64,000 nt of DNA from Paramecium tetraurelia. Lineage: Eukaryota > Ciliophora > Oligohymenophorea > Peniculida > Parameciidae. Numbering within the stretch: the stretch's first letter is position 1; each line of letters opens with the position of its first letter. Made by a program: the position numbers and the translations under genes. Under the pieces are notes generated by a model. The model was not told where the DNA came from. It searched no databases and was given only the letters and a program-made list of their open reading frames with translations. The stretch covers positions 124,001 to 188,000 of the forward strand of contig NW_001798999.1 in NCBI RefSeq assembly GCF_000165425.1, given 5' to 3'. Shown piece after piece: positions 25,888 to 49,724 of this stretch.

Positions 25888-28556
25888 TCAAACCTACCTA
25901 TAAATGCGAATCAACGCTTGTTTGAAATCGTCAATATTCAATGGTTTAGTCAGCACCTTTTGCATTCCACTATCAAAACATTTTTCTATTTCATATTATC
26001 CATTGAAAGCAGTTAATCCAATAATAGGAATAAAGGGAATGATCTTCCCAATCATCATATTTCTCAATCTTTTGGTTGTTTGCCAGCCATCTAAAATTGG
26101 CATTTGGCAATCCATCAAAATGAAAACATAGAGTTAACAATCCTCATTGCATCTCTTGGCATTTTTGACAATCTCAATTGCCTATTAACCATTGTAAGCA
26201 AGTAGTATTTCAAATCCCATCTGTGCCAGAATCAATTCGAGAGCCTTCTAATTAAAAGAATCGTCATCCACAGATAGAGCTCTTTGACATTAACATTTAA
26301 ATTTGAACTTAACCTTACTGAAATTAGATTAGATTTAACTTTGATCATCTATCTTTTGTTGCATTCTGGATACTAATGAATTTTGACTCTGTTTATTCGT
26401 TATGAATTTAGGATTGAAATTTGATTATACATACATAAGTTGATGAGACAATTCAAATCTATCAGAATCTAAAGGCTAATATAATATCTCTTTCTACCTT
26501 AAAATTAAACATCCGTCTCAAATTAACATTAAATTTCCAGCTTCTAATTCTATTATGGTTTCCCATAATAATTGGCCACGGATGAAAGACCCTTGACAGG
26601 TATGTTCTTAACTGAAGTATTTTTATATTCAGCATTAGCTATGATTAATAGGCCTATTAAAATAGTTCTATATGTAATACCTTACAAGCCTTCGCTAAGA
26701 TCAGGAACTGTATTAGGTGTAGCTAGAGATCCTCTTTTGAATGTTTTAATTTAACCTAATTATTAAGAGAACACTTATGTTTGAGTCTTTATTCTGAATT
26801 TAACTTCGACACCTTGATTTAATCCTTTAGAAGCAATTTAGAGATGTGATTTATTTTAAGGAGCTAAAGTGATCAAATTCATCTGACTTACTAAAAGTCC
26901 TAAGCCTTACCACTCGTGCTATTGAGAAATACTTCTATTCAAAGCAAAGTCTTAGAGAGTTTATTAGATTTTTGCTAGGAGTTAAGGCTCTATACCCTAT
27001 CCTTAATCCTATACTTTGAATAAGACGTAGTCATCAAACCCTTGAATCACCACTTCAACTTAGCCTTAAGAACTAAATTTAACTGAATTCGAGATAATAT
27101 TAACTAAGATTTGCATAATTCGATAGAAATCAGACTTTATGATAATTGGAATAGACCTTTGAGCATTAACATGCAATCCTATTTTCTTGTGTTAAAATAT
27201 AAGCTTAAATAAATCGTTTATTTCTTGGATGATGTCAACGAAATTGAAATCTGAAAAGTGATATTTAATCATCTTCTGATTGAATTGTGTGAAGTCAATG
27301 ATGTCTCTTATTATGTATGCTTACAATCTTAATGAGTTCTTAGCAGGGTCAATAAAAAGTTCTTTCAATTCAATAGGTAATTAATTTGTTTAACTTAATC
27401 CTTATAAAAATAGTTCTGCACTATTTAATGGTGTTCTTAATTCATGTGAAAATGAATCAATCATTTTTACAATGAATTGTTCTTTTGTTTCCATCTTTTT
27501 GAAATTTGTTTAAAGTGTAATATCTTGAATTATTATCAAATATTCACTTTCATCTTAAGCATATGAAACTTTAAATAATAGATTTCTCTCTTCAAAAAAT
27601 GCTTCATTTCCCTTACAAAATGTAGCAGATAATTCTAATTGATCATCATTTGACTTAATCTTCTCTAATTGCCCTAAGTTTAATAGATTTAGAATTTGTT
27701 TAATAGTGAAGGTCTTGTTCTAAATTTAGTGCTAAGTTAGATTGATGGAACCCGAAGCCTGGAGGAGACTATTTTTCTCTAACACTATGCTTGTTTGATT
27801 AGTAAAATAGGTGTTTTTCTTTTGGATTATTGTGCATTCCAAACTCTCAAGGATGAATCTGCCAATGTCTCTTTCAGCCTAAAAAATTTATAGCAATTAA
27901 TCATTTTCAAATAAAATTTCTAAATTGTCCTTTTTAACTATTACGATACCCACAGGGAAACTTTGCAATTTATTCATCCACTTCAGACTAACAGATTCAT
28001 TAATCCTATTAATTAACAAGGATTATCTTATCTAATTTTATATTGGTTTTATCTCTGTTTTTGATAATTATTCGAATTTAATTTTCTCCTATTTCCTTAT
28101 AATTAAATGTTTTTCTTTTAAGAGCAACATAGTTGCATAACCTACTGCAATGTATGTAACTCCTAATTCATTGTGAGAGATCATCAAAAATAATTACACA
28201 GCATTCAAAGCGATTAGGATGATGTAACTAATTTATTTCTATAGAACATCTATTAATTGTTTCTCATAAAATTTAATAAGCAGATAACCATATCTCAGTA
28301 TCTCTGTAAAATAAAAGCAACAATAATATATTTGCACCATTTGTGCAGATAACATCACAATTTATATGTATTTTCTCTTTTTGCCACCAAATTTCTTCGC
28401 TATGTAAGGCGATAATAAAATGCCGAGCAATTGAATTATGATTGTATTGATGGATACTATAAAAGAATCTTTTGAATAACTATAAATTATTCCCGATAGA
28501 GCAATATCAATAAAGCATTTCAAATAATACCAAAATTCTTTATTATTAAATTTCAT
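25888..28556 (-). CDS. membrane hybrid histidine kinase with receiver domain
   Basis: The N-terminus has several hydrophobic segments (for example SINTIIIQLLGILLSPYIA). Then come a PAS-like linker (LPVGIVIVKKDNLEILFEND in part) and the kinase core: H-box SFSHELRTPLNS with the phospho-accepting His, N-box QILVNIISNSVKFS, and G-boxes VQDQGQGIEP and GLGLLVSQ. The C-terminal receiver has the acidic pair VDDDSFNQKALELI, the phospho-accepting Asp in VFILMDCQMPILDGWQ, the Thr in IIGLTAFNGQ and Lys in VLTKPLNIDD. It is a complete phosphorelay sensor kinase at a membrane. Exon joins between 26,300 and 27,000 are not fully resolved; one exon has a TGA near 26,530 that a 30-nt GTT...AAG intron would remove. 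Confidence 0.85.
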
Positions 28557-29482
28557 TATTAAATTTACAACAATTAAGTGTCTCTTAAATATAGTTAATT
28601 AGTTATATTTTAGAGTGCAAAGAGATGATAATTCAAAATATAATTTAATTCAACACATTCCTGTTAAGTCATAAAAGTGAAAAATTAGTTTGAAACCTGA
28701 TAACGGCAGAGGCATATTGATGCAAATGAAAATAAGACCATCAAGAACATTTTTAAGTATTAATTATCATATTATTTAATATATTTATTTACAATGGAAA
28801 GCTTTATTTCATAAAATTTTATTTTCTAGTAAATCAAATTACTTAAATTGCTTTATCCAACTAAATTGAAGCACTTATGATGAATATATATTGTTATACC
28901 AATTTCTATCGGCTTTGTTAGACTAGTTCATTAATTCTTGATATATTATTCTTGCATGTGAACGCATATAGTGAATGCTTCTTTATACGCTCTTTTTATT
29001 TAATTTAATAATAATTCCATAATGATGGTTCAGTAAATTTATAAGCCTTTAGCATAATGATTATTTTAAAAAGAGATTATTTTTGAAATCGTCTTGCATT
29101 AGATATTTCCAATTTCAAACATTCCTTTCAAACCATAATTTCAGAATAAACAACCATTTTCGGTTATCCTAAATTTAAAAAATATTATGTATTTATGTTT
29201 GCTTATATTTTATCTTTCTTAAAATTACAAACCTCTAATACCAATAATTAAAATCTAGGGATTTATGATTAAATTACATTTAATAAAGAAATTGTGATTC
29301 TTGCATGCTAATTTTTAATCATTTTGTCAACTATTTCTGAGTATGCAATTCTAAATACTTAATCTATTGTTACTCACTAATGGATTAAATCATATGAAAT
29401 TTATATAATGATGATGAAGAGAGATAAATAGATTATAAATAATATAAAAACATTAATTACTCTCTTTTCTTTCTTTTTTAAT
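28557..29482. other. gene-free intergenic stretch
   Basis: About 925 bp of AT-rich sequence upstream of the histidine kinase. I see no coding frame with protein-like composition on either strand, no tRNA and no repeat. Confidence 0.5.
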
Positions 29483-29773
29483 TCATATCTAATCAGAACA
29501 CATTCTAAAGCTTCTTCTTTGAAAAAGTTCTGAGTCCATCGTCAGTGAAACTCGCCTTTGTTGTTTTGGGGGTGTCAGTGCTGCATCAAGACTATAAAAT
29601 GAATTTCTTTAATTGCAATGTTTTTCTACTTATGTTAGTTGATTAATTCCCAACTAATCCAAATAGGAAACTATTGATTATTCAACATCATTTTTGATTG
29701 GTAACCATCCATAAGTAAATTATTCGCTTTTTGAGGAATTCTCATTTGATTTCTAGAATTGAGGTGATTGCAT
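29483..29773 (-). CDS. small hypothetical protein (96 aa)
   Basis: Single-exon frame starting MQSPQFQKSNENSSKSEQF and containing GWLPIKNDVEQSIVSYLDQL, then a basic tail with Ser/Arg motifs (PPKQQRRVSLTMDSELFQRR). The RRVSL and RRSF sites look like basophilic-kinase targets. It starts 28 nt after the TGA of the CENP-B-like gene on the same strand, so the two may share regulation. No family recognised. Confidence 0.6.
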
Positions 29774-29801
29774 AAGTATTATTATATTTTAATATTATAT
29801 T

Positions 29802-30296
29802 TCATGATTTTGAAATCCTTTTATTTCTAATTAGTTTATATTTTCTAACAAATTTATCTGTCCAACCTTTACTTGCTTTGAAATCCACTCCTTGCTTAAT
29901 CATTTTCAAGGCCTATGTTTAGATCATGGCTCGAGAGACCCTTTTATTGGTATTTCTGATAGTTTCATGACACCATGCTGCCAGTTTTTATTCCATTTCC
30001 AAATCAATAGATTTGCGCCCACAACCCTTCTTACGAAAAGGACCTTGCTTTTTCCACCGTCTAATGTTCTTCAATGGAATGTCTAATTCCTCAGCTATCG
30101 TTCTTTCATCTCTTCCTTCCTCAATCCATTTGAGCGCACAAATTTTTAAATTTAGACTATAGCTCCTATACTTGCCTCTCTCCTTTTTCTTTTTCTTCCT
30201 TTGCTATCTTGTCTTTAAGTCTCTTATTCTTTAGCAAAGGTTCTTTCTAAATTTTACAGGAATGAGTTGAAATTTTTCACAAATAGGTTTTTCCAT
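29802..30296 (-). CDS. CENP-B/Tc5-type helix-turn-helix DNA-binding protein (domesticated transposase-like)
   Basis: A 164-aa single-exon protein. Residues 50-95 form a first helix-turn-helix of the psq/CENP-B N type (NLKICALKWIEEGRDERTIA then LDIPLKNIRRWKKQGP). Residues 105-160 form the second, CENPB/Tc5 type: LEMEQKLAAWCHETIRNTNK, AMIQTQALKMIKQGV and the hallmark FKASKGWTDKFVRKYKL. This bipartite DNA-binding module belongs to pogo/Tigger/Jerky transposases and CENP-B. No DDE catalytic domain follows: TGA comes right after the second motif, and no transposase-like frame lies downstream (the small MQSP gene is unrelated). The ORF is intact, so I infer a host DNA-binding protein of transposon origin. 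Confidence 0.8.
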
Positions 30297-30839
30297 GTTG
30301 TAAAAAAAGTGAAGAGTTATCATAATTTTATTAAATTCTATTTTATATTAATCAATCTCAATCTCTAAATACCTCATTTCTTTCTAAATTACAAATTTCG
30401 AATTTTCTCCAAACTTATCCTCATAATTTAAAATCTAAATTTTTCCATTTAAACAAATTCTACTAATATTCAAAAACAAAATAAATAATCAATACAAATT
30501 CTTGCGTATTCAATGCATATTAATTTTACAAAATACTAATTGTATTCTATTCTTTATCCCTTAAAATAAAATATAATAGAAATCTATAATAGATTATTTT
30601 AACAGTATAATATTAGATATATAAATAATAATTAAATTTTTGTAGATCTATTACATTGTAACCATTAATATTCTAAAAGTATCTTTGGGAATATTTTAAT
30701 ATTAAATATATTTGTTGATATTAAAATTGAAACACAAAAGTATTAATATTTCATTTAATCTGTATTAATTAGGAGTACAACAATTTATTAAATCCTTTCT
30801 GATGAATTAAGGCAGGTGGAAACAATGTAGCAATCAATT
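30297..30839. other. intergenic AT-rich spacer
   Basis: 543 bp upstream of the CENP-B-like gene and downstream of the TmcB-like gene. 30,320-30,490 is poor in G on the plus strand. No genes, terminal inverted repeats or RNA genes seen. Confidence 0.45.
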
Positions 30840-33800
30840 TCAATTGATTTAATCTGTTATACTATTTGTTAATCCAAAAAGCTGACACAAAAGAAGTAAA
30901 GATGAGAAATCTAAGATAATTAAAAATATTTACGCAACTGATGAAGTGATTAGATAAGTTAAGATTTAATTTGATAATTTGTTGCTTAATATCTGTGTTT
31001 CAGTAAAAATATCTAAGAAACAAAAATAGATGCAAGTTTGCAGTTCAATAAAGTATTGTAGAAATAAATGAAAATGAAGAGATGATTACAGAAATTAGTC
31101 TGAATGACTCTAATCATACTCATAACGTAAATTAACTTTTTCAAAGTTGAACTCCTCTTTGGATAATTTATTTAAGTCTTAAATTATCCCATAAATACCT
31201 TTATCAATCAAAGTGAGATAATTTTCATTTTCAAAATATAGCTATTTGATGTTACTTATTTAGCAAAAACTCAATATGCTGGCATAGTAAGTACAGAGAT
31301 CATCATTAAAGATATCAATTAATTGTTGCTGAAATGATTAATTATACGAGGTTGTGGTGACTAGTTCATTATTGATCTAATCTGAAAGATGGAGCAAAAC
31401 ATCAATATTATTGAAAAAGAATTCAATATGATCAGTTTAATTTATGTAATCTATTGCACTATTATTTTTGATTATATGTTCAGTCTTCATGACTTCCCCT
31501 ACAATTACTGCAGAATCAAGTCTTGACTTCAGTTTCAGATACTTCATAGTAAGGATTAAGCTACTTTAATATTGGCTATTATATAATTTGGAAATCAATT
31601 GAGATCCAAATATAAACAATATCAGTTCGCAACCAATAATCAATGACAAGATTATCAACAAAGTGTACTTTTCATTGTAATTTTCCAATTTGCTTAGTGG
31701 ATTGAATTTTGGTTAATTTGCAATAGCTTTCTCACTTGGTTTTTAAGTGACAGGTTCTTCTTTTGATTACGATTATATCAGTAATAGTTTTGATAATTGG
31801 TCTTTTTAAAAATGCAAAATTTCTATCTATTCTTGAATAATTTTAATGTTTAAATATTACAAAAGTCTAATTAATTTGGTCTCAGTCCTTAATAATCTAC
31901 AATTGATAATAAAGAAGATAATCAACAGAAATAGTATGACTATCGAAGAATATACACAAAATATAAAGGTTTGGTTCTCAAATTAAGAAAATGATTACTC
32001 AGTTGATGAAATCATATCATCTAGTACAAAATTGTGAAATTTAAATATGTTTAACATATTCTATCTAATTAATCCATCAGTCTTGAGTATATCTGGATCA
32101 AAAGTCGTGATATTCTTGAAGTCTGTTTTTTTAAACTGCCTTACCAGTGCTTCTCTGAGAATAGTATAAAATTAATAGTAATCCAAGCTAGATTAAGTCT
32201 TTTAGCCATTCTAGTAACTAATTAAATCAATGGTATCCATCCCCAACTGAGTACTCTTCTTACTGAGGTTCATTGTATATTCTTCATGTACACTGCCCCA
32301 GAAATCAAAAACATATATTAATTAATTTTCTCTTCTAAATTCTAAGTATGGACTAATTCGATACAGTTAGTTTTCAATACAATACTGATTCCACATCAAC
32401 ATGAATGAGGCTCCTATGTTGAAAGTCATAGCCTATGGAGTATTCAAAAAATTGACATCATATTGTTAGTGGATCATATTATAATAATTCAACAGATAAC
32501 TCACCAGTAAAGAAATTGTGGTCACACATATCATTAATAATAGTATCCAAATGTTGTACTTTAATGGAGTATACAATTTCTTGCTTTTGATAAGATTGGA
32601 AATGAATTCATAATCTGATTACAACCCTTCAAATTACGACTCATCGGTGATTAAAGATATATTTTAGATATCTTCTATCTAAGGAATTTAAACAATTTTT
32701 TATTGTTAAAATTCTTCTATCTATTTGAATTTCAAAACAAAGTAGGTTGTATCTGACTCTATAAACTTCTGTTGTACAAATTCCAATGATCCTTCAAAGT
32801 CAATACTTTTCATTCGTGATGGGGGGACTACAAGTGCTTGTATTTAGTTCATGATTTGCATTTGCATAATCTTTATTTTTGTGTCTTTAATGGTGGGCAC
32901 TTCATCTGTTAATTTAGGTTATTTAGAAGAAGGCAAGCGCTTTGTGGAAGATGAATAAAAGATTTTTTTAAATTTCGAGGAAATAGTTGCTTCATCGTTG
33001 ACAAGTCCTAATGCTTAAGTTTAGTCAAGACACTTCTTATGATTTACAGGGAATTGCCATCTAGAAGCAATATTCACTGATTGTTGGAATGTTCCTAAAG
33101 AATATTAAGTGGCTAATTCTTGAATATGAGAGTATATTTCTGGAAGATAATATTGAATCATTCCTGATTGGATGAATTCAGAAACACCTAATTTTTTTGT
33201 AAATGCATTATCTGACTTAGATGTAAAAAATTCATATATTTATTAGGAGATCCCCAACATCTTCCCTTCTGAATCGAATAATGCAAAATGATTGGGTTGG
33301 TTTTTAATTACTATTAAATTTTACAATATGATATCGTCCTTACTAATTGTTACATAGATGTATAAACTACATTCGACTAAATATTCATCTTTATAAAAGT
33401 ATAGAGTCAAAGGCTAATTTATATCTAGGCCTTAATACAAATACTGATTGACAAAACTATTATAAACGGTTTTTTAAAATTATGGCAACAAATCAACTAA
33501 TTGTTTTGGTTCGAGTTGGTCTCCTATGATTTGGAGTAGCCTCTTATTATTTTTATTGATTATATTATTGGAATTCATAATAAAACTAGATGACAACAAG
33601 AATGCTTCATCTATGAATATTTTTAAATAAATATTTACTCTTCTAAAATTTAGTGTTCATTATCCTATCGTAGGCAAGCAAATCATTTTGTTTCTTCCAG
33701 AGATCTTTAACCTATCATTAATTTTGTTGATTACTTTAAAATAATTACTGTAAAAAATAAACAAAAATGAAGATACAATATTAATAGATATTTAATCTGA

Positions 33801-35243
33801 ATTCTGAAATTCCAATAATCTTCCACTTTCCAAGTCATATTGTCTTTCAAAGATATTCTTGTATTTCTCTAGTGTGCTTAAGATTTTGTCAAGCTATATT
33901 CTAAACGTATTCAGGTATTGATCCAAAGATTACTCCTTTTTCAATAAGAGATAGAACTAGCTTTTTATGTCTATAAAATTAATTAAGAGTTAATAATTTT
34001 ATTATTCTAAAAGAAGCGTTTTAATGTACAAATTAACATTTAAAGGAGATTTAATTAATCCATCACAGTATTAGATGACATTTAATAAATTTGCCTCCAA
34101 AGTAGATTATTACAGAATACTTAAATTTGTTTTGTCTATATTTATTAAATTTAGATAGAGCTGTATTTTCTTGTACTTGAAAACATACTACAAGATAGTT
34201 AATCTCTCAGGGATATCACCATTCTACAACACATGTTTTTAGTATTTAATGACATTCTATTCTTGAGTGGCTGTAAAAAATTAAGAGTATGATGTAAAAT
34301 ACTTTACTAATTCTGGATTTTTAAAAAGACTGTATTTGAATAAATTTGTTTATGAATTTTTCGAAAATAATTCTTCACCTAGTCTCTTTTACCGAATTGA
34401 AGTTTAAATACTAATCAACAAAATATAAATTAAAACTAAATCGTACCAATACTATTTTATCAAAAACACGATTATATACGATATGATAAAATTTGAGATT
34501 TGTAAATAGTACCAACTGTTATATTGATAGTTATTCATCTTTTATGTAATCATGATAAATCTTGAAAACAACAAGAGAATTGGTGCCACCAAATACTATT
34601 CTTGGCTCTGCACTACAAAGCAAATTATAAGCTACATAATTAGGTAAAATAAGTTCACCAGTCTTGAGGAGTAACAGCCTTCAATTTCAATTAAACTGTT
34701 TTGAATATTACAAAAACAGTACATAATTTCTAGTGATAAACCTAAAATGATTCCTATAATAGACAGTTCTATATATTTTAAGGATAAAGCAAAATTAAAT
34801 GTAATATTCAAAGTGGGCAGAAATATTATTAAGTGATAAATGTTTTGAAAATATTTGAAAAATTATCCTACCAGAATAAATTTTTCATTTTTATCAACAT
34901 AAACAATTGCTAGCATCAAAAGGTATAAGACTTGTGTGGAGAGCAACAAAAAAAACAATGGTTCGACTTAATCATATTTAATCAAATTGATGGAAAACTT
35001 CTATTGAATAGACAATAGAGAACTCTGAATTTATGTGGAAGTTTGATTTTGAATTTCTGTTGAAGTGATTAACTATATCTCCTGTAGGGCTGAGACGAAT
35101 AGAAGGATTTTTGCAAAGATGAGATTAAATAGTGTTGGCTCAATTTTGTTTCTGATCATTATTTATTGCATCCGCACTAAGCCATTGAATACTAGTTTCC
35201 CCAATTTATCATTTATTTTCTTCTTTTTTAAGGCCCTCCTCAT
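30840..35243 (-). CDS. large multi-pass membrane protein, TmcB/tiny-macrocysts-like
   Basis: A very long protein (about 1,400 aa). The N-terminal half has many hydrophobic helices (for example FFLLLSTQVLYLLMLAIVYV, IIGIILGLSLEIMYCF), then a long helical stretch, a PAS-like segment (NKINDRLKISGRNKM), a second PAS-like region (NNKRLLQIIGDQLEP, VIKNQPNHFALFDSEGKML), a basic linker, and further membrane segments in the C-terminal third (YNIWILLLMICVTTISLLV, FCVYSSIVILFLLIIFFIIN). This is the architecture of the TmcB/tiny-macrocysts family, abundant in ciliates and probably sensory. The join near 33,640-33,690 and the last exon are uncertain. Confidence 0.65.
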
Positions 35244-35395
35244 AAATAACTCAATATAAATAATATTAAAATTAAGCAATTTAATAATTCAAGTAAGGAG
35301 ACACATTTTACATTCTCTAATTGATTGAATATCAAAAAATCTATATGAAGATTGAGGAATTAATAAAAATAAAAGCTCAATAATATTATATTGCA

Positions 35396-38300
35396 TCATT
35401 CAAACATATCGTCTCTCTTGAAATTTTATATTACACTATCTTATTGATTTTCTTCATCAGAGCATTTTTCCGAAATATACCCTCCTAGTTTCTTGACTTG
35501 CTTTTCACTTTGAGTCGCTTAGAGAGTTCCTAAACTCTTATCAGATTTGATTGCAGGAAAATCGATTTTTTGAGTTTCATGTACAACTTTCATTGGAAAT
35601 CCATTGCACATTTCGTCAGGATCAATATAAAAGTTTAGACTAGTCAAAGAATTTTTGTCATCCTTGTTTTGTTATTATTTCTAGTAGTTTTGATGCATAG
35701 CTCTCTTTGGTTGATGGATGGCTTGTTCAATATCAACATTGATTTCACTCCTTCTTTAGACATTGGTTTATTAGAAGTTATACACCTTTTTTCTTATTTA
35801 GCTCCTTCTTCTGCCTTTATTTCTTTCAAGCAGAGTCTTGGTGGTGATGTAAGCATTTTCATTAATTTCTAATTGCTTTAAGTTTTTCTCCTTTTGCATT
35901 TCCTTGATTCTTTTCTTGATCTTCCTCCTCTCAATAACTCTAAATTAATAACATCAATACCCTCTCAAAATGTCAGTGATGGAATTAAAAGCAAAGATAT
36001 CTACAACAAATTGTTAGGTTTTCATTCCAACCAAATCAGGATATCTGGACTCCCATGATTTTCTTATTTAACGTAGAATGATCTTGTCTTCAATCTATTC
36101 GATTCCTTTGAGTTCATTCTTCTTTTTTATTGCATTGTAAGCCAACTGGATACATATATCCTTGAAATGAACCATTTTATTTTGATAAATTTACACTTGA
36201 TAATCACTTAGTTTTTGAAAGATCTCAGTTTTGAATAGTCTCATCTTTTTCTTATGATTATAGAAATGGGACTTCAATTTTTGATTTTCTAATTATAGAG
36301 TTTTCTATTTTACTTGCAGCAGCAAAGTCGTAATATTGAGAATTTTCATCTTTAAATCCTAGAGGGGGATTTATTTCGAACATCAAAAATGCAAAATCTT
36401 CTGGGGTTATCCAACCTGTACCTTGAGGATCATAATCCGACCATTTAACTAAAAAGTCCTCTAATTAATACGGATTTATGGCAGCCGTATTTTCTAATTG
36501 ACATTCCTGATATGATTCAATAATCATGGCTAAAAACAATGAAGTCATGATGATGCGAATCAAAACCAGAAAGCTAATAAAGAAAAAATAACCAAAGATT
36601 GTACTACACCCCCGAGCACCTTCCGATTCAAATTGTTCAGGAGTTTGGGCATGACATCCTTTGGTATCAATTGTATAATCAGCCATATACAAAGACCAAT
36701 ATTAACCAGTAGAAATATCGATTAAAATCAAGACTCCATCTAAGAAATTTGAAAAGGACTTAGTTCTTTAGCTTTCTTCCATCGTATAGGGATACTGAGG
36801 ATCTGATGACGTGCTCCATACTGTTGAAAAGGTCTGGACTCCTATTAGTGAATATATGATTATGGTGATTGCAATGAATACTATGACACTCAATAAGGTA
36901 GGAATCAGATCTTAGATCACATCAATGAGAACTCTCAATTGTTTATTGAACCTAAATAATTTATTGGCTTTTATGATTCTCAGGGATCTTATAATGAGTG
37001 GAATCGTGTAAAGTCTAGGCAAGTCAAAACTGTCCTTCATTATCAAGAGCACATCTGTCACAATCAATATGATAATATCGAATTTATTGAGAATATCTCT
37101 GAAGAAATGAACCCAGTATGCGAGTAGTTTGATGAACAATTCCACATGGAAAATTACTATAAAGAAAATACTCATTCCATATAATGCCTCTTAAGTGGTG
37201 ATACTCTACTTGCCACTATAGGATGAACAACTAGATATGAGTGCAATAATTACAAAATTAGATTGACCACAAGCAAAATTAGGATGACAGTCTCGAAGTA
37301 TTAGTTGCTAGCCAAATGATAACAAATTAGTCTGTATTTGGATGAAGGTTTGGGTATGAGATATATAAGTTTCTTCTTTTGCATTATTTACATCATTTAT
37401 ATCCATTGTCTTTGAAATTCATTTAATTACTAAAAGTTGGCAATGTTCTCCTTGATAGTTCTGTAATTGTTGATGATCAAGCCAGTGATTAGATTGAGCA
37501 ATACGATATTCAATGAAAAGATCAACACATAAAAGAAGAATTGGTATTAGGATGATGAATTAATTTTAGGATTGAGTCCTCTATTGGTGATGTCAGATAC
37601 ACTAAACATTTATTAGGTCCAACCCTCTCCAATGATTAATCTGAACAAACAAAGTAGGGAATCTTGGATTGTATCATAATTGGTTATATTATTTATCCAT
37701 TATCCTCCTTTGGCGAGACAATCTTCTACGTTGACAATATCTTAAAAGTCTTTCAACGATACTTAGGAGCAAAAATAGAGTTTGCCCTTCCATATTGTCA
37801 TGCATATGATACTTAGAATCCACAGACTTATGCCAGTAACAAATATCATTGATGAAAGTAATGAGATGGTTTATAATAAAGATCTGGATATTAGATTCAG
37901 TTACTCATTTTGCGATCCTCTCTACATATATCAAAATTAATTACCCGTAATGTGATCAGAATTCTTAATGTTCTCAGAGCTCTGAAGGCTCTTAAGTATT
38001 AGCTCTTGTAAATATTGAGATCATCAAGAGAACTAATAATGAGGACTACGAAATCTAATTAATTGTTATTGTTCATGATATAGGATTTTTGAGGTTCCTA
38101 TTTATTCCAATAGAAACCTTGGGCTAGGATTTTGATAAATGCGTCCAATATGAAAATGCCAGTAAATGCATAATTAAATACATCAATAACTAAATTCTCC
38201 TTTCTGAGAGGTTGATCATACCCTAAGAGTATTAAATTAGACAAAATAATGAAACTCATTGCCCAATCATAATATTTAGATTGAATGAGAATGTGTAATT

Positions 38301-40750
38301 TCTTCCTTAAATTAGATCGGTTGTGTAGGATAAAAAGTGATGAATTTCCAAAGAATTCTTTCCAATTCTATTAATAAAGTGATATTATTTAGAAATCATC
38401 ACTGCTTTTGAAAATCTACACCTACTAATATTTTGATTATTGTCTTTTTAACGCAGGGTGTTATTTTGAATGAGTCTCCTCTTTCTCACTGTCATCAGAG
38501 ACCTTAGACAATCTTCCAAAGAAGCGTTTCTTTTCAGATTATGAATTGCTGACTTGCAATAATGAGGTCTCTTTTGTTGGTACAATTCTAGATTTATTTT
38601 GCATTGTTGAAATAATTTTAGTAGCTCTAGCTTTTGAAATATCAGCTTCGTTTTTAGCATCTTCATAATTATCAAGCATCAAAGTCAAAAACGAGGGAAG
38701 TATAAAAAATTTACAAATAAATTAGACACAAATGAAAAAGATATACGGAATCCAAGATCCAGTTTCCAATGTAGTATAAAATATGGTTTACCATTAATCC
38801 GAAGATATGATTATAAACAATGTAGTAATTGTCTCTCTCATACTGTCGAAATTAGCCCTTGGAATATAGGAACCATCCAAATCATAGAATCCTAAATCAT
38901 TGAATCTTAATTTCCCAGCAAAAAAGTTACGACCCATCAAACCAATCACTAGACCGTAAATAAAGAGTATCAAAATCATGATGGGGATGTTGTTGAACGA
39001 CTTCCATAAGGCTGATAATAAAACTCGATAATTTGACCAACTAGTTTAGTAATTGAAGACCCATAGCAATCGTATTCCTTTGATTGTATTTAAGATGAAG
39101 GGATGTTCCAATTAATTGACTTGGACTATCAAACCAACAAAATCACAAATAAATTCTAATAACACAATTATTTTGCTTTCCTTTTATTTCCAAATATAGA
39201 TTCTTGCTATGTCTTCTATTAAATAAATTACCAAAAACACCACATTTATTTTGGCTAATGTTCCTTCTAATTTGTTTATATATGCTGATTCATCATTTAG
39301 AGACAACACAACAAGATTAGCCAAAAATAAAAGACTGTAAAAATATTGCGTTATTTTTGAAGATAAAATAGATTTGATAATTACTCTAATCTTTCTTTAA
39401 TCACTACTTCTTTTAGTTGAATTCATAAGCATAGTCATAACTCTTTGTTTACTTCTACTAAGATAATTGGGACTCTAAAACACAGTCTTTCTTTTTTCAT
39501 TCGTTAATGATATTTTGGTATGACTATTTAAAAATAAAACTGTTTAAGCTGGTTCATCTAAATGAACTTCTTGTTGAGATTACTTCAGAAATATGGCAAC
39601 CACCAAGTTTTACAAAAAGAATGAACAAATAAAAATATAAGTCCACAAATACCCAGTACTCACATATTTATTGAATGAGTCAGCCAAACTCTATTCAATT
39701 TCTACCCATCCTTCAATATAATGGACTATAAACAAACTAGCCATTGATTCTTGAATGTAATCAAATTTAGTGAAATTATGTGAATACTAAATGAATGGTT
39801 ACTCAAATTGAGCCTGCTGACATTCATATCCATCAGAACAAGACCTTCCCAAACCACAAAATCGAGTTGGATAGTAGTCAACCTCATTATCTTTGTTGAT
39901 GCATTAATTTCCGATAATCCCAGTCCAAATTTGTAATCCTACCACTGCAAACACATAAAAGAAAAAGCAAATTATTATTGTGATGTAAACAATTGAGATA
40001 AATGAATGTTCTACTGTCAAACAAAATTTTCGGACTATTCTTAAAATTTTGTAGTGCATAAAAAACTCAAGCAAAAATAGTATTCTTAATGTATAAAAGT
40101 AAGATTGTCTCAAAATTAAGGCGAAGAACAAGGCTATTCCATTTATGAATGCTATTGGGTTCCTGTAGTATCCGTATTTACAACTCCATAACCTACATAG
40201 TTATTCTAAATACCCATATGAAACTATCGATATTAGGTGATGAGCAGCAAATATCACATCTGCGGTGACTATTACTCCCAGGATCTGATCATCATTTAAA
40301 CTGAACCCAAATCCACTCTTTTGACCATTGTAAGGCTTGATCATCAAAATCACTATACAAAATGTTGTCTAAATAGTTTGGAAATAATACGAATATGTAC
40401 ACAGAATATTAATAAACTCGAGATTCATTTATTAAAATGCAATATTGCCGAAATTTATTATTCATTCCAAAATAATCCAAAGAAAATTAGCAATAATAAG
40501 GATTCTCATTTTTTTAAAACTGTTCATCAACATTTTCTAAAAAGTGTAATCGAATGTTTGCTTACGATGGATTTGGTGAAAAAATCCCCTACTCTTAATT
40601 CAACCTATTTAAATCATTTGTTGCCTAAAATTCCTTATTATGGCTTTCTATTTGATTCATATTTTACTTGTTATACTAATGTTTCTAAAAGGACTATGGC
40701 AAAATGTCCTAAACTGAAGATAAGATATCCTTCTCATAATCGCGATTCAT
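35396..40750 (-). CDS. four-domain voltage-gated cation channel, pore ring Glu-Asp-Glu-Gln
   Basis: About 1,700 aa with the 24-TM architecture of Cav/Nav/NALCN alpha subunits. Four repeats can be seen, each with S1-S6. S4 helices are charged, e.g. RSLRIIKANKLFRFNKQLR in repeat IV and YLRAFRALRTLRILITLRV in III. Pore loops read HYIEGWVEIE (I, about 39,700), ISSDQWQTIF (II, about 38,790), IIGEGWTQQM (III, about 37,630) and ISTGQYWSLY (IV, about 36,700): Glu, Asp, Glu and Gln at the selectivity position, the Gln being a TAA codon. After S6 of IV comes an EF-hand-like region (WSDYDPQGTGWITPEDF) and an IQ-like helix (LRQIRKSWESRYPDL), as in calcium channels. Several 21-25-nt introns. The N-terminal 115 residues are cytoplasmic. 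Probably ciliary or plasma-membrane; the ion is not predictable. Confidence 0.88.
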
Positions 40751-40841
40751 CCTAAACTTCGGTTACTTTTTGAAGCAATTTAAAAAAGACTAAAGCATAT
40801 AAATAATATAAATTTAGTATTATTATTCTCAAAGCTCTTCA

Positions 40842-42547
40842 TCAAATCCACCTCCTCCTCTAAGAAGTCTGAGTCGATTGAAATGATCCTCCAATCTGAC
40901 TTACCCTTCTATCTCCTTAAGTTTTCACCTACTCTGATAAATGTCCTGGAATCCAAATTTCTCTAACTTCCAAACAAGACTTAGAAATTTCTGGATGCAA
41001 CAACTTCCGTATTTCTGATTGGCTGGGAGGCTTAAGAGGTAAGGTTTTCTAAATTGATTGTGCTTCATTAAAAACATCATCTTCACTGTCTCTTTAGGAT
41101 TTTAAATATGCTTCATCAGCACTTATCTTCCTCGAAGGTTGTTGTCCTTGTTAGTACTTTATTCTCCTTTTCCCAACAGCATTTATTTCCACTGGTCTTA
41201 TGGGTACATTTTTATTTAATGTAAATCCTACATGGGCGATACTACTTCTCCTTTTGAGACTATGCTACATGGACTATAATTTTTATTCCTCTTAAGCGTA
41301 TGTTAATCTTTATTGACTATGAGAAGCTATCCCATTCTTGCCTCTTATTTACATTAATTCGAGAGTGGTTTTCTTTTGGTTCTAATTATTAGTGTTTTTC
41401 AGAAGATCTAATATAGATGAGGATTTTGTATTAACTTTGTGATAATTCTCAATTGAATTGAAAGGTTTAGAGGAACTTAAATTTACATAATAAAGTTTTT
41501 CTTACTTGGAGACTTTGATGTTGTACATAGCATATTATACAAAGTTTTTGAGCAAAGTATTTGTAAAAGGGTATTTGGTATCAATTTCAAACATGCAAGC
41601 CAAAGCCTTGGGATACTCAATTATTGATGGTCCTTCGTCACTTTCTGCAAGACAGATAAATTTCTTTTCGGAATTATTGAATTAGAAATTGTGAATATCC
41701 CATCTATTCAATAATGGTGCTAAAAAGCGTGATTCAATATCTTTAAATGCCTTTGTTGTTTTAATTTAATGAATAATACCCAATGTTATAAATAAACATT
41801 TCTTATTGAGACAACAGTTTCAGTGTTTTTATTTTTACTTAGAAAGGAGCCATTTTGTTTTGGTTTGTAAATAGGAGCCTTAACAACATACTTTCCTATT
41901 GATTAGAATTCTTGGGCTGCACTCCTTAAGTGAATGCCTACATTCAATTTTGGAATCCACTCAGAAGTTTCATAATTAAAAACATATAAATCCCCTGATG
42001 TGTTTTCCAAAAACATATCGCTTTGTTAAATCTGGATTTTTAATTCTCTTAGATCTGATAATTTTCCTCCATTCTAATTGATTAAGTTGATAGGCTTATA
42101 TATCATATTAAGTGATTACTCTCTCAATATTAGATGCTGATAAATACACTAAGGCCTACATGGCAAATCCTGAAGCAAAGAGTAGCTTCTATACTCTTAA
42201 ACACATTCTCAACAAAACCAATATTTTTGCTAACTATGATTCTGAAATCCATACCCATGTGAGCAGCCCAAGGTCGAGTGTGACAATCTCCAATAATGAA
42301 TATGACATCAAGTTGATCGAATTTTTGAGCTGCTTCCTTTTTCACATAAGAACTTTCTACTTCGTATAGAAAGTCCTCTATAGTATCCCTATTACGAACA
42401 TAAAATTCATTTTCTGTATCTATTAACTCTTTTTACTCTGCTAAATACTATATTATTCGGATATTTTACTTTCATAACATGAAATTGGAAATGTTGGAAT
42501 TTTTCTAGGTCTTTGTTATCATAGCAATTTATTATTAAAATTCGCAT
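40842..42547 (-). CDS. hypothetical 543-aa protein between two channel genes
   Basis: Three introns (22 nt TAG, 23 nt CAG, 29 nt AAG) give a clean 544-codon frame. The N-terminal third looks like an α/β fold, beginning MRILIINCYDNKDLEKF and containing VIFIIGDCHTRPWAAHMG, faintly like a Rossmann or amidotransferase-type domain, with no residue set I can name. The middle (GDLYVFNYETSEWIPKLNVG, FICLAESDEGPSIIEYPKAL) looks folded. The C-terminal 200 residues are basic and low-complexity. It lies on the same strand as both flanking channels, 91 bp before the start of one. A role linked to the channels would be pure context inference. Confidence 0.7.
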
Positions 42548-42734
42548 TATAAAAAAATAATAAGTTATTTTATTAGTCTTGGTGAAAGTTGATTTTGCTG
42601 ATAAAAAGTGAAGATATACTGGATAGTTTTTATATTTTGAAGATAAATTAGAACTTTGTGAGCATTTGATCCATGTAAGTCATAGTGTAATTATAAAATT
42701 AACAAATATCAAGAAAATATAATTTAAATATTTT

Positions 42735-42980
42735 TCATTATTTTTCTTGTATTCCTAGTATTCCTTTGACAGTAATTTTACTTTTGTTTATTGTTTGTAG
42801 TCCGATTCTCATCTCACCAGGTTTAGAGATACCTACAACAAATTTATGGGTTTCAATCCTATTGGAGAATTATTCGATTTCCATTTGACTCTAACATTTA
42901 TCCTATAAATCCGTATCCATATTGATACAATCATCTTGACTGGATTTTCGTGAAAGTTTTTGTGAATATTCTAAATTCAT
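42735..42980 (-). CDS. small hypothetical protein (81 aa)
   Basis: Single-exon frame. It starts MNLEYSQKLSRKSSQDDC, and the C-terminal half looks folded (RIETHKFVVGISKPGEMRIG, INKSKITVKGILGIQEK). It is well separated from its neighbours (124 bp to the channel stop upstream at 43,105; 187 bp to the next gene start), and its composition is coding-like. No family recognised. Its position between two channel genes makes it worth testing as an accessory subunit, but it has no membrane segment. Confidence 0.6.
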
Positions 42981-43104
42981 GGAAGATTAATTAGTGCTGA
43001 ACTTTAATTAATTTATGAAGCAATTTATGAATACTATTTAAAATTCTGTTATTTGATATAAAACAACTTATAAATAATAGAGTATCAAAAGTATTATGAA
43101 ATAA

Positions 43105-46100
43105 TCAGAATTTTCTTATTTTGAAAGATTAATCTGGAGATATAAAGGCTTATTCAAATAATCCTCCTGATTGCTAATCACTCTGCCATCTGTAAACAGG
43201 AATGTCTTCCTTTTTAGGTTGGTCTTCCTCTGAACAATTGGTATTTGGATGAATATTTTCTGGTCGTGGTTCATCATTTGATATAACTTATTGTGTAATA
43301 TCATCTTCAAGAAATTAATTACAATCTTAATCAATGCTAAAGGATACACTAAAATAAGTACTATTGGTTATTTATAGATTTTTTATCGAATGAAGAATCC
43401 TGCTCATCCAGATCTTCCTCAGTGAATTGTTTCTATTTGATGTTGAGCTTCTTAATTAGTTTTCTAGAGTAAGCCTCCCATGCTTTGTATAAAATGAGGA
43501 CTGTCAGATAATCATGTAATATATTGAAGTTGGCTTTCAAATGCAGAATGGGACTGATGTTGCTTCTCTACAGGAACCTGTTTCTTCTGTAATACATCAG
43601 TCGGAGTTACATTTCCTTGTTGAATTACTTGACTTTCTTGATTGAGGAAGAAGTGCCGTTCTTGAACACTTCACCATGATAACATACTCTAAATAGTTCG
43701 TATATTAATTGATTATACTGAATGTATCCAAAGTGGTCACTATTTTATTATTAACAATAAATACCATTATAATTTAAATGAAGAAGCCAATTTACCAACA
43801 TCCCATAAATTCTCATCACTCCCACCACCCAAAGGTTTCCCAATATCCAATAAGAAACGACACAAAAACTTATAATGCATTGCTTGACCTTATGTTTCAG
43901 AAGAGTATTTACACCAAATTGTTTTGATCTTATCCATATTTTCAACGTAAGTTTGAATCATTGAATTTTAGAGCATAAAGAATTACTCAAACTATTCCAC
44001 CAAGCCCAAAACAAACAAATTTAATAGAACATAATTTGACAGCAACATAAATAGGAAGAAGTAGATTTAATTATAAATACTTCCACAATAGGTTTCATCT
44101 TCCGCACAATAAGGATTATAAAATATTGTGTCAGTCATTATAGTTCTCCAATCATCTCCTGATGCACATTTAGAAAAGGGAGAGCATGGCTTAAGCCAAC
44201 ATTCTGGAAATTGATTTAATCATCCATCACCTATCCCTTTTCTAATCTTCCATATAATTGACAGCCGAAAAGTGCAAAAATATACATCGTTATGATCAAC
44301 AAGCAGAAGATCTTCCCCAAAAATGGCATAGCAAAGACCATGACTCTCATTAATCTCTACAAATTAATCAATCCTTAGAAAATCAAAATAATTCTTAAAC
44401 ATCTGATGGCAAAGAATAACCGAAGGAGTTGATATCCTGAATCAGCTGGTGATGATCTAAAATAGACCAAGGCCCAATCTGATTCGAAATCAGCTATAAT
44501 ATCAATGATGGCTATTAAAATCAAGAAGAAATAGAATCTTCTCCAATGATTATCAAAAAATCTATTGACTCCTAAAGCAAAAAACAATAGGATATTCCAA
44601 ATGATGTAGATATATGTTAAACTATTGTGAGTACTATTCAAAATTCTGAAAAAGTTGTCATCCATCTCAGAAAAGAAGAGCAATAACACCATTAAATCGA
44701 GCAGTAATAAACAAAACATAATCTTTTGAGCAGTATTACTGTTTGTTAAATCAGAAGCAAATCTTCTAATCTTAGAAGTAGGAGGTGAAGAGTACAATGG
44801 AAAGTCTTTAATAATTATTTATGAAATCTCCATAAACTCTACTTGAGCTTTGGTGATATCAGACATTTCTATTTTGCTCTAATTGGCTTTCAAATTTGAA
44901 TATAAGACTCCCGTAAATAGACTCAAGAAAAACATTGATCCAATAAAACAAAATGTTATAAAAAAGGTGTAAGTATGTATGTAACTATTAAATGCCTCAG
45001 GACCTATATTTGGATTCTAACTGTTTTCTGATATCTGCATAATTTCACCCCATCCATCAAAAGTGGAAACTACAAAAAGAGTGGGGATAGCTATTGTAAT
45101 ATTGTCGAAATTATGTTTATAATTGATCCATGTCCTGTTCTACTCTAAACATTCCCGCTTGTTAACTTCAAATTGCATTTTGTCTTCACAAAATCCAAAC
45201 TGCTGCTCATATAAGATAATTCCATAAACTCCAAATATAATCCACACTGAAAGCATAGTAATCAGCACATTCCAAATGTCTGCTAGAGATCTACCTAATG
45301 CTAATCGAAGTGTGTCTAACCATGATATTCTGTACATCAATTTCATCACTCTGAAATATCCTAAATATAGAATTAACTCCACTATTATGCTTTTGTTTTG
45401 ATTTGATAAAAAATTGAGGAAAAATGAAATGATATAGATGACATCCACTATTTACCATGTGTATGTAATGTATGCTCCCTTATTCATCCACATTCCCTTT
45501 GCAATACTACCGAAAATAATCTCTAACAGAAATATAATATTGGCTATGAATTGCAAAACCTCTGGATAAAATGAAGAATCACTCTCATAGTCATTATATG
45601 TCTTCAAAGCAAAGACAACAATTGAAAAATATAAAACAGTATCTATAAAGTAATTGAAGAATTTTGAAGTGATTATTCTGCAACATATTATTCTGAAAAG
45701 GTTTTCCTTTTCAAATAAATAAAACGATTATTTGCATTAGATTCCATCATATAAATTAGGATATTTGTTTAATATATCTTTATGAACTTGTCTGATTGAT
45801 TTCATTAAGTTTGTTATTAAATGCTACTTGGACTTTTTCTATTGGGTTTCACTTAAATTAATTTATGATATCAATGGATTTAAATTCAACTAAAATTCGT
45901 TTATTTCTTGTTGTTCTGTGATCTGTGAGTTTTATTCCTCCTATTTCTCATTATTCTTTTCCTCATCTTATTCTTTTTCTTCATCCAACTCCTGCATTTC
46001 CTTGTCAATAGCTCCGAACCCATCCAACAATATAGCCAACACCAAACCATAGGTGATATAATTCAATAATATAACCATTGAATACGAATAAATTACAGCA

Positions 46101-49100
46101 AATATATAGTTAATATTTCCTCCCATAACATAGACTCCATACCAATCATCATTTGTTAAGATGTTGAAAATCGTCATAAAAGCCTTTAGAATATTGTCAT
46201 AGGAATGCAATTATCCTAGAGCATCTGTTTAGTCGAAATATCCGGCATACATCTCCATGCCAATCATAGCATAAACAAAGATGACTAAAAAAAACAAGAA
46301 GGTCAAATATATATATTATCTGAAAGTTCGCTAAGCAATATGTCCAATCGCCACTGCCATTTTATTATATTTCAATACTCGATAAAACAGAAGACACTTG
46401 GTCCCCCTTATCAACCTAAGATTCTGTTCATTTAAGTTTGTCATTACTGAACTCATAGTAAGCTCGATGAAGTTCAAAATCACAATGCAGGATTGTAGAA
46501 CGTAATCGGGACTTTAAGATATGTCTTTAAAAGAAAAAGCAAAAAATCTAATTACTAATTCTATGCATAGAAATATTGTTGAAACATCCTCCTCATTAGA
46601 TATTGTTACTGAATCAGCTATTCCTTATAATGATAGAAATGTAAAATTAATTAAGATAACACTATCAAAAAATAATTAGCTTAGTTAAGATGTAATTAAA
46701 ATATAAGAGTATTTTCGCAGAGTTTCAATTTTACCTTTAAACCCAAGCATCCAAATTTAAATGTCAATAAAATTAAGTCTCTTTAACACTTCTCTGAAAT
46801 TGAATAATCTAGACTCATTTAATTTAAGAACGTCATTTCCAGACCAAGTTTTTTTTGAAATCTAATTCTATTGAATATCCTTCCTTCTTAGTAATCTATA
46901 CTAGAATTCATTGGATGGCTAAGAGTGTTTGTTTTTCTGAATTTTAGCATTAATTTTTAAAGAAACTCCTGCATAATTTAAATAGTATCCTTGGATATGG
47001 ACCCAATTTTAGTCTTATTTTTTAATTGCAAATGGAACCTTGCCTTCATTTTATGAAAATTTGAGTTTATGAGATAGTGCCATACTTTGTTTTTAAATAA
47101 ATAGGTTTTGATCCAAAGAATTGTTGGTTTCTACTTCTTCATCCTCAGTCTCATTCAATTTGATCCTTTTCACCTTTCGAATCGGAAATTGACTGAGTTT
47201 CTTGCGATCATATACAATTTATTAAATCTTTTTTTATTTTATATCAGGATAAACAACAGGTATTTTGATGTTCCTCATGTTGAGAATTTCCTTTTCTAAT
47301 TCCTTTTTCTCGCAATCAGGCAAACTATTTATAGAGGAATCTCATTTACTTTAGAGTTGGCAAAACGTCTCCTTCACTTTCAAATTTCTAATGAATTTGT
47401 TAATTGACTGAGGATTACAATTAGGAGAATTATAAAGACTTTAATCTTTCTAATATTTACAACTCAATCTCGTCTTCAGTATACCTTTTAACATGAATAG
47501 TCTTTTGTTTCTCATTCAGTAAGTAGAATTTAGGCAATAGAATGTTTTTTACTGTTAAATTCTAAATTTTATAAATTAATCTTTTAAAATAACCTTACTA
47601 AAACAATGTTATAATATTTTATTACTTTTGGATTGTAATCTTCATTCTTTTTTTGTTTAGCTGACAATATTCTTGGTCCCTTTTACTTATTTGAATTGCC
47701 TTTTTCATTGACATTTTCTTCTAATTTGAAGGCTCGATAAGGGGATTTTAAAGCCAACCGATATCTTTGAATAACAGGAAAAAATTCAATATATCTCAAA
47801 AAAGCCACATCAAAAACATTAATAATATCTCTTTCGGGAAGTTCCCTATTCTCCTTAATCTTCTACTGTATTTATCTCATTTCTTCTTCCTTTGCATTCT
47901 CCTCTGCAGCTTCAGCATAATGTATTTTAATGACCGCAATAACTAAATTGAATCCAAAGAATCCGCAAACAAAAATAATGAATAAATAATACAACCAAGT
48001 CCATGGATGATAGATTCTCATCGTAAAGAACATGACCCAACTCCAATCATCCATTGTAATAGTTCTCAAAACTTGTCCATATGAATAAACGACATTGTTA
48101 AAGGAAGTCGGAAGTTTCGGAGTGAATGATGAATATTTACAAGACATTCCTTCCTCATAACAGGAATTTTAATTGCATTGGACCCACCCGTCAGTTTCAT
48201 CCCCATTATCATATTGACATCTATAATTAAATAATCCTTGAAACAAAAAAACTCCTGTGATTGCAAAAAACAACGAAAACAATCCTACTATCATTAAAGC
48301 TTCTAAGAGAAATCGAAAAGACTATTTCAATGCTTTCAACATCACTCCCAACCCTGAAAAGATGTCTCCTAAATACAGTAACAATGTTATCACACGCAAA
48401 GGCGATACATCTACTATGAATACATCAGGATAATTAATGTTTAAAACATAAACTACAACCAAAATGCAATCAAATAAGTCTTAAAAATTCTTGAAGAAGG
48501 CTCCTTTTGGAATTAATACACCTGAAGCTAGTATTCTGATTCCCAGTTCTATCAAGAAACAAATCATAATTGCTGTTTCCATATCTTTGGTTGACAGGGG
48601 GTCTTAATTGGTTTAAGAGTATATGTATAGGGTGACATTGAAGATAATTAGAAAGGACATGATGATTTTGAATGGAACACTCCTTATTATCCTTTTGCAT
48701 AAGATTGGAATAAATAAGGAATAATAGACTATAGACTTTCTTAGATTCAGAAATTTTTTATCATCATTATAAGCCTAACAATGGAAATGTTAAATTTACA
48801 TTTATTTCATAGTGCAATCTTTCGAATCCATGCAGATCCTACAACTTCACATAGTAAGGATCCTCAAATGGGTTTCTTTCATATAGTTTTTTAAATTTTC
48901 CTTTTAACTTATCCTCTACCGATTCATTATCAGCATAATCATCCTCTTCACTGTCACTTAGTTGTTATTTGACTCTATTATGAACTGCTAACAACTTAGA
49001 TTAAAAGGCTCCTTTTTTGCTACGATGAGACATCTTTAAGGATCTTTGGGATGACATTCCGTCACTTACTTAGGATTGAAGCATTTGATCTCCTCCACAT

Positions 49101-49724
49101 TGTTTTTGAATATTGATATCTTGTTTCATTCCCCATCGATGTTCAAAATCAATAAACTAAACTTTTAAAATAGACTTTTCAATTCCATCTGAGATATCCA
49201 ACGGATTTATGAAATCTTAATCAAATGACATATTCGGCAATATTAATTTATCCTACACTTAATAAAAGGAGGATTGGGCTTATTATATAATACCAATATT
49301 GTCCTTTAAAATTATTGATTAGTCTAACTTCTCCTTGTTCGATTCCGAATCACTAGAAAAAGATGATGATCCTGAAGATAAATCTTTGTTCATTGAAATG
49401 TTCACTTTTTATTTGCTTTTGATAGATGAAACGGAATGTCTGCTTCCTATCATTCTTATTTTACTTTCTTCCGACGAGAATAAATTAGAGTTGCTCATTT
49501 TTCTATTTGCAATTTCCCTTGAAATTGAGAAACGCTTCTTAGAACTTCTGGCTACTTCATTCTGCTTTCTATCACTTATCTTCTGCATTTCCTATAAATA
49601 ATAAATTAATCATATTTAAAGTCAAGTTTGAAAACAATAAATTCACCTCCACTTCCTCATCTGACCTAGAATATCCCCCCTCCTATCTTCGTCCTCGAAC
49701 TAGAATAGACAAGTGAATTTTCAT
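43105..49724 (-). CDS. four-domain voltage-gated cation channel, pore ring Asp-Asp-Asp-Asp
   Basis: About 2,000 aa with four S1-S6 repeats. The cytoplasmic N-terminus of about 280 residues is Ser-rich. Pore loops read TITMDDWSWV (I, about 48,060), ILTNDDWYGV (II, about 46,150), VSTFDGWGEI (III, about 45,070) and CASGDDWRTI (IV, about 44,160). Asp occupies the selectivity position in all four repeats, giving the T-x-D-x-W consensus known from CatSper channels. S4 helices have fewer charges than in typical Cav (LRLFFAIRCLRIILI in IV). After repeat IV come an EF-like segment and a long helical tail. A frameshift separates FQNVGLSHALPFL from CASGDDW in repeat IV. The start at 49,724 needs a 55-nt GTG...TAG intron; 49,588 is the safer internal ATG. 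Confidence 0.85.
44165..44176 (-). other. apparent one-base frameshift in repeat IV pore region
   Basis: Upstream of this point the minus-strand frame reads INFQNVGLSHALPFL, and downstream the next frame reads KCASGDDWRTIMTD. Together they make one uninterrupted conserved P-loop, so the joining frame change is real in the sequence. It needs one extra base (or two fewer), most simply one A missing from the CTAAATG run. No normal intron covers it. Candidates are a sequencing or assembly indel or a true mutation. Confidence 0.7.

Follow-up and report, generated by a model that had tools for sequence, protein, structure and literature searches.

Two four-domain cation channel genes with different rings of pore residues lie side by side on the minus strand of the window, the 64,000-nucleotide stretch of Paramecium tetraurelia DNA analysed here, and this raises the question of whether they are copies of one another or two kinds of channel, and of what each would let pass. 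The first-pass annotation had described them as a local pair of paralogs that suggests two different permeation properties. We assessed both genes, hereafter A and B, against solved channel chains, the other four-domain channels of the genome and published ciliate channels.

Gene models and pore rings

Both genes were read with genetic code 6, in which TAA and TAG encode Gln, and with introns of about 21–28 nt, and the resulting models bear out the reading of two minus-strand four-domain channel genes (Table 1). Gene A matches PF00520 (Ion_trans) in four stretches (357.8 bits), giving four repeats in one chain, and its C-terminus scores 27.6 bits against the GPHH family PF16905, for which the cut-off is 26.8. 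A sixth intron in the model of A, at 35434-35413, was discarded by eye as the frame is already closed by the stop at 35396. For gene B, repeats I and III pass the PF00520 cut-off among the 150 of 154 genome matches listed, the end of repeat IV reaches 26 bits against a cut-off of 25, and repeat II and all of the loops were located by alignment.

Table 1. Features of the two channel genes and the DNA between them, in window coordinates.
Feature	Position	Strand	Basis
Gene A, four-domain channel, ring E-D-E-Q, ~1750 aa	35396..40798	-	gene model; start 40798, alternative start 40750; stop at 35396
A introns	40390-40369, 37944-37922, 37253-37231, 36313-36289, 35960-35940	-	gene model
A repeat I loop, Y-I-E-G-W (E)	39700..39723	-	alignment and translation
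A repeat II loop, S-S-D-Q-W (D)	38785..38805	-	alignment and translation
A repeat III loop, I-G-E-G-W (E)	37613..37633	-	alignment and translation
A repeat IV loop, S-T-G-Q-Y-W; neutral Gln at the Glu of Cav T-G-E-A-W	36690..36713	-	alignment
A GPHH region start (PF16905), typical of Cav C-termini	36414..36443	-	Pfam, narrowly over cut-off
A basic IQ-like stretch	35903..35938	-	by eye; no Pfam IQ match
Gene(s) between A and B	40842..42549	-	weak model
Gene B, four-domain channel with ring D-D-D-D and a frame break in repeat IV	43105..49588	-	gene model; first Met 49588, stop 43105
B repeat I loop, T-M-D-D-W	48037..48057	-	alignment and translation
B repeat II loop, T-N-D-D-W	46136..46156	-	alignment and translation
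B repeat III loop, S-T-F-D-G-W	45044..45067	-	alignment and translation
B stretch with frame broken twice by single extra bases	44172..44198	-	against 5/5 paralogs
B repeat IV loop, A-S-G-D-D-W; as assembled, not in the frame of repeats I-III	44142..44165	-	
B IQ-like stretch	43448..43486	-	by eye; no Pfam IQ match

The two channel genes are neighbours as annotated, with a measured gap of about 2.3 kb rather than 2.4 kb, and of the two genes placed between them we could model one, with a low score and no Pfam family over the cut-off; a second is unconfirmed. Large open reading frames at 26232-35288 lie downstream of A on the same strand; by eye, the one at 26232-28649 is histidine-kinase-like and the others are membrane-protein-like.

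An alignment of 29 channels agrees with all eight pore-loop readings of the annotation, E-D-E-Q for A and D-D-D-D for B. At the selectivity-filter position, the Glu residues of A repeats I and III stand opposite Glu, and the Asp of repeat II also opposite Glu, in solved Cav chains, whilst with repeat IV and GPHH aligned to Cav2.2 and Cav1.2 the Gln of repeat IV falls opposite the filter Glu of T-G-E-A-W. The Asp residues of B repeats I and II stand opposite Cav3 Glu and that of repeat III opposite Cav3 Asp; these loops were placed through solved Cav chains and the repeat IV loop through paralogs only. The residues directly after the ring are D, D, G and D in B, and in A none of the four is acidic (E-G, D-Q, E-G, Q-Y). 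S4 charges, judged on the alignment, are regular in repeats III and IV of A and sparse in repeats I and II; the S4s of B are charge-poor by eye, with at least one poor in Lys and Arg.

After gene modelling no pore codon switched to give a Glu ring. The four ring residues of A are shared with a paralog at C199:117769-123100, which is 57–58% identical to A in the tree alignments, and the search that found it scored 32 of 86 candidates, so that A has at least one close relative, the next best-scoring match being 27% identical. Since a paralog diverged by 42–43% has the same four residues, EDEQ in A is no sequencing error, and on this comparison of sequences the ring is real. The gene model of the paralog is faulty at the S4 of repeat III, where the open frame shows the Arg spacing of A, and about 18 kb from it the same contig carries a DDDD gene. 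Neither ring is a product of chance, because the residues of A recur in this paralog and those of B in 10 other genes.

Relatives of A and B

The 29 modelled channels give a partial catalogue of rings, set against 38 multi-hit loci of which some hold more than one gene: DDDD occurs in 11 channels, EEEE in eight, and ESLL, NDDN and EDEQ in two each, with EQDE, NEDN, TEEE and IEEE seen once each, the TEEE and IEEE calls hinging on the alignment of a diverged repeat I. All four examples of other rings that passages of Pozdnyakov et al. (2018; PMC5824947) give for channels of P. tetraurelia in subclades Ia and Ic (EQDE, ESLL, NEDN and NDDN) are present in this genome, which, with the code and the short introns, agrees with an aurelia-type Paramecium. 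The EQDE channel (L017, C190:15000-24900) has T-G-E-G-Q without Trp in repeat IV and a repeat II loop one residue short. The same passages give DDDD as the filter that dominates ciliate subclade Ic, P. tetraurelia included, and in part of PMC6259924 it is listed for protist pores; the DDDD ring of B is thus already published for ciliates and is not new. A word search of the literature, which does not reach figures, supplements or a slash-separated spelling, did not find EDEQ as a channel filter, its one hit being a paper in whose reference list the word names an enzyme; the text passages of PMC5824947 do not name it, and Figure 3 and the supplements of that paper may still have it.

A and B fall into different supported clades in three trees (24, 29 and 26 rows), of which all rows come from this genome, without reference Cav, Nav, NALCN or published Ic rows. 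In the 26-row tree, from which C163a, C163b and C4 were left out on long-branch warnings, grouping the lineage of A by constraint with nine DDDD rows makes the fit worse by 171 log units (p-AU 1.34e-06, an indicative value since the group was composed after earlier trees had been inspected). Local matches between A and B are about 21–25% identical. A tandem duplication giving A and B is rejected on the trees and the AU test, which corrects the idea of a duplicated pair. Clustering the 150 listed of 154 matches into 38 multi-hit loci (69 Mb genome, 231 contigs) gave seven pairs of these loci within 25 kb, where a simple uniform estimate predicts about 0.6; the adjacency of A and B is not special, because channel genes cluster genome-wide. 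Clustered four-domain channel genes lie on contigs C4, C17, C39, C46, C101 and C199, with apparent tandems on C163, C179 and C180.

Among the 60 of 91 matches listed, the solved chains closest to A are those of Cav2.3 and Cav1. Its repeat IV and GPHH region can be aligned from end to end with HVA Cav1/Cav2 alpha-1 subunits, and repeat IV matches Cav2.2 with E 2e-21. A differs from these channels in having EDEQ in place of EEEE or EDEE and fewer S4 charges in repeats I and II, and because its ring is neither of theirs we describe it as Cav-like and do not file it as an HVA Cav; in the sequence set of PMC5824947, as far as its passages go, the AID is confined to the HVA Cav clade. Filing either gene as a Nav channel is not supported, as neither ring is DEKA or has a Lys. 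The same holds for NALCN: four domains and weak S4s are shared with it, but neither ring is EEKE or EEEE, both genes match Cav chains best, and NALCN matches repeat IV of A only weakly (E ~5e-6). Within the genome A is provisionally sister to the EEEE genes C36, C214 and C165, a deep placement graded so because its branch is long (2.7–3.6 changes per column in the three trees).

Gene B has Cav3.1 as its best solved match (E 7e-69 for the channel up to the S5 of repeat IV, among the 60 of 93 matches listed), and Cav3 is also the best match for both pore pieces tried, with E 7e-19 for the repeat II piece. It shares with Cav3 (T-type, EEDD) the Asp of repeats III and IV, but in B repeats I and II also have Asp, and its S4s are charge-poor. 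In the 29-channel tree B belongs to a clade of 11 DDDD channels, made up of nine close ones with C198b and C39. Subclade Ic, as passages of PMC5824947 describe it, has D/D/D/D as dominant filter, at least one S4 poor in Lys and Arg and an IQ motif, and is likely voltage-insensitive; B shares the ring and the charge-poor S4s, has an IQ-like stretch by eye with no Pfam IQ match, and differs in that its frame is interrupted in this assembly. Judged from ring and features, rather than from a joint tree with the published rows, B appears to fit this subclade.

The interrupted frame of gene B

The two single extra bases of gene B lie between the S5 of repeat IV and the D-D-W loop, in a stretch through which all five paralogs compared (C17, C199B, C78, C198b and C39) read without a break, and beyond it the upstream frame runs into a TGA at 44135. 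Introns were rejected as the cause of the break, as the GT-AG candidates at 44262-44237 and 44230-44204 would delete S5 and P-helix residues that are kept in the paralogs. The break may be an assembly error or a young lesion. If it were a lesion, B would be a young pseudogene, with a protein that would lack the repeat IV loop, S6 and the C-terminus, which the two extra bases and the TGA would fit. We regard this as unlikely, if still deserving of weight: no further interruptions were seen in the gene model of B, its end branch (0.43) does not exceed the distance (0.45) between the same fork and its sisters and so gives no sign of long relaxed constraint, and a one-base fault in another channel gene favours an assembly error.

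That fault came to light amongst the introns of 27 other channel genes (~135 kb of spliced DNA), where the pattern GTA...TAG with 20–31 nt holds for 52 of the 65 model introns and fails for 13. The one misfit of the 13 that was examined, a 35-nt 'intron' in the C44 gene, masks a one-base gap relative to two close paralogs. This gene is an EEEE channel (L013, C44:34500-44400) and the gap lies in its repeat IV region. A further channel, C180a (L015, C180:203000-211200), has a two-base gap relative to C44 and C149a, which could be an alignment artefact, an intron difference or a fault. One- or two-base faults may occur elsewhere in the assembly.

Predicted permeation and candidate functions

Gene structures, rings, in-genome clades and paralogs together point, we think probably, to two channels of different subfamilies at this locus of a Paramecium-type macronuclear genome, a Cav1/2-like A of mixed permeation and a weakly voltage-dependent, divalent-permeable B; selectivity, gating and membrane location are predicted from these observations. 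Two permeation types are plausible because the rings differ and are real, and this part of the original proposal stands without the local paralog pair on which it had been built.

In animal channels, a neutral residue in place of one ring carboxylate weakens Ca2+ binding. A would be a diverged Cav1/Cav2-like alpha subunit that opens with partial voltage dependence, and its EDEQ ring would weaken Ca2+ selectivity so that Na+ passes alongside Ca2+. Such mixed monovalent and divalent permeation is expected because A has lost one ring carboxylate and is also missing the 'beacon' Asp, which in calcium-selective Cav channels directly follows the ring in repeat II (PMC10120453, in part). B, provided that cells carry it with an unbroken frame, would be weakly voltage-dependent and permeable to divalent cations, as may be expected because it has four carboxylates in the ring and an Asp after it in repeats I, II and IV. 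We make no firm call on its selectivity because passages of PMC4436565 hold DDDD or EEEE rings of homotetrameric channels to be critical for Na+ or Ca2+ selectivity; selectivity, according to the same passages, is not set by the ring alone. Parts of two reviews (PMC8208649, PMC8964087) describe three Cav1-like alpha subunits as ciliary, after work of Lodh et al. (2016); a ciliary role for A or B is conjectural.

A and B might instead be ordinary Ca2+-selective voltage-gated channels in which the odd ring residues reflect neutral drift or sequencing errors. Cav chains do give the best alignments for both genes, and the single-base faults in B and C44 are known in this assembly, yet we consider this account rather improbable: the four residues of A have survived in its paralog despite their divergence, and DDDD is found in 10 other genes here and in the published P. 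tetraurelia account (PMC5824947, in part).

Currents of Paramecium were known well before the majority of the genes behind them. It is very doubtful that A or the DDDD family carries the Ca2+/calmodulin-dependent Na+ current, since the genome has many other cation channel genes. In favour are the missing ring charge and beacon of A and the IQ-like look of its C-terminus by eye; the channel of this current has activity in excised patches that is restored by calmodulin, and passages of PMC9608856, which report this, name no gene for it, a silence that need not mean that the gene has escaped identification. With equally slight probability, A and its paralog could form a conserved ciliate lineage in which a Cav1/2-type channel has become Na+-permeable and regulated by Ca2+/calmodulin, and which could encode the Ca2+-dependent Na+ current; the route would be neutralisation of repeat IV (EDEQ) with loss of the beacon Asp. 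If true, calcium permeation would have given way to sodium permeation with no Lys entering the ring. What deserves a bench test is the EDEQ lineage; DDDD, the main surprise, is already published. DDDD, EDEQ and EEEE channels in one genome are natural variants for tests of how ring and neighbouring charges bear on Ca2+ versus Na+ permeation.

That B is four fused CatSper-like repeats forming a ciliary CatSper analogue is hardly credible: T-x-D-x-W does occur in three of its four loops and the repeat II piece matches CatSper3 weakly (E 0.002–0.004), but B is a single four-repeat chain far better matched by Cav3, the repeat IV loop of Cav3 in the alignment, T-G-D-N-W, has the same motif, and CatSper is absent from the 60 matches listed for each gene (of 91 for A and of 93 for B). 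The 'CatSper-like' description of the annotation holds for the motif only. In two other channels of the DDDD clade, C198b and C39 (L022, L023), the loop of repeat IV reads D-D-F, with Phe in place of Trp.
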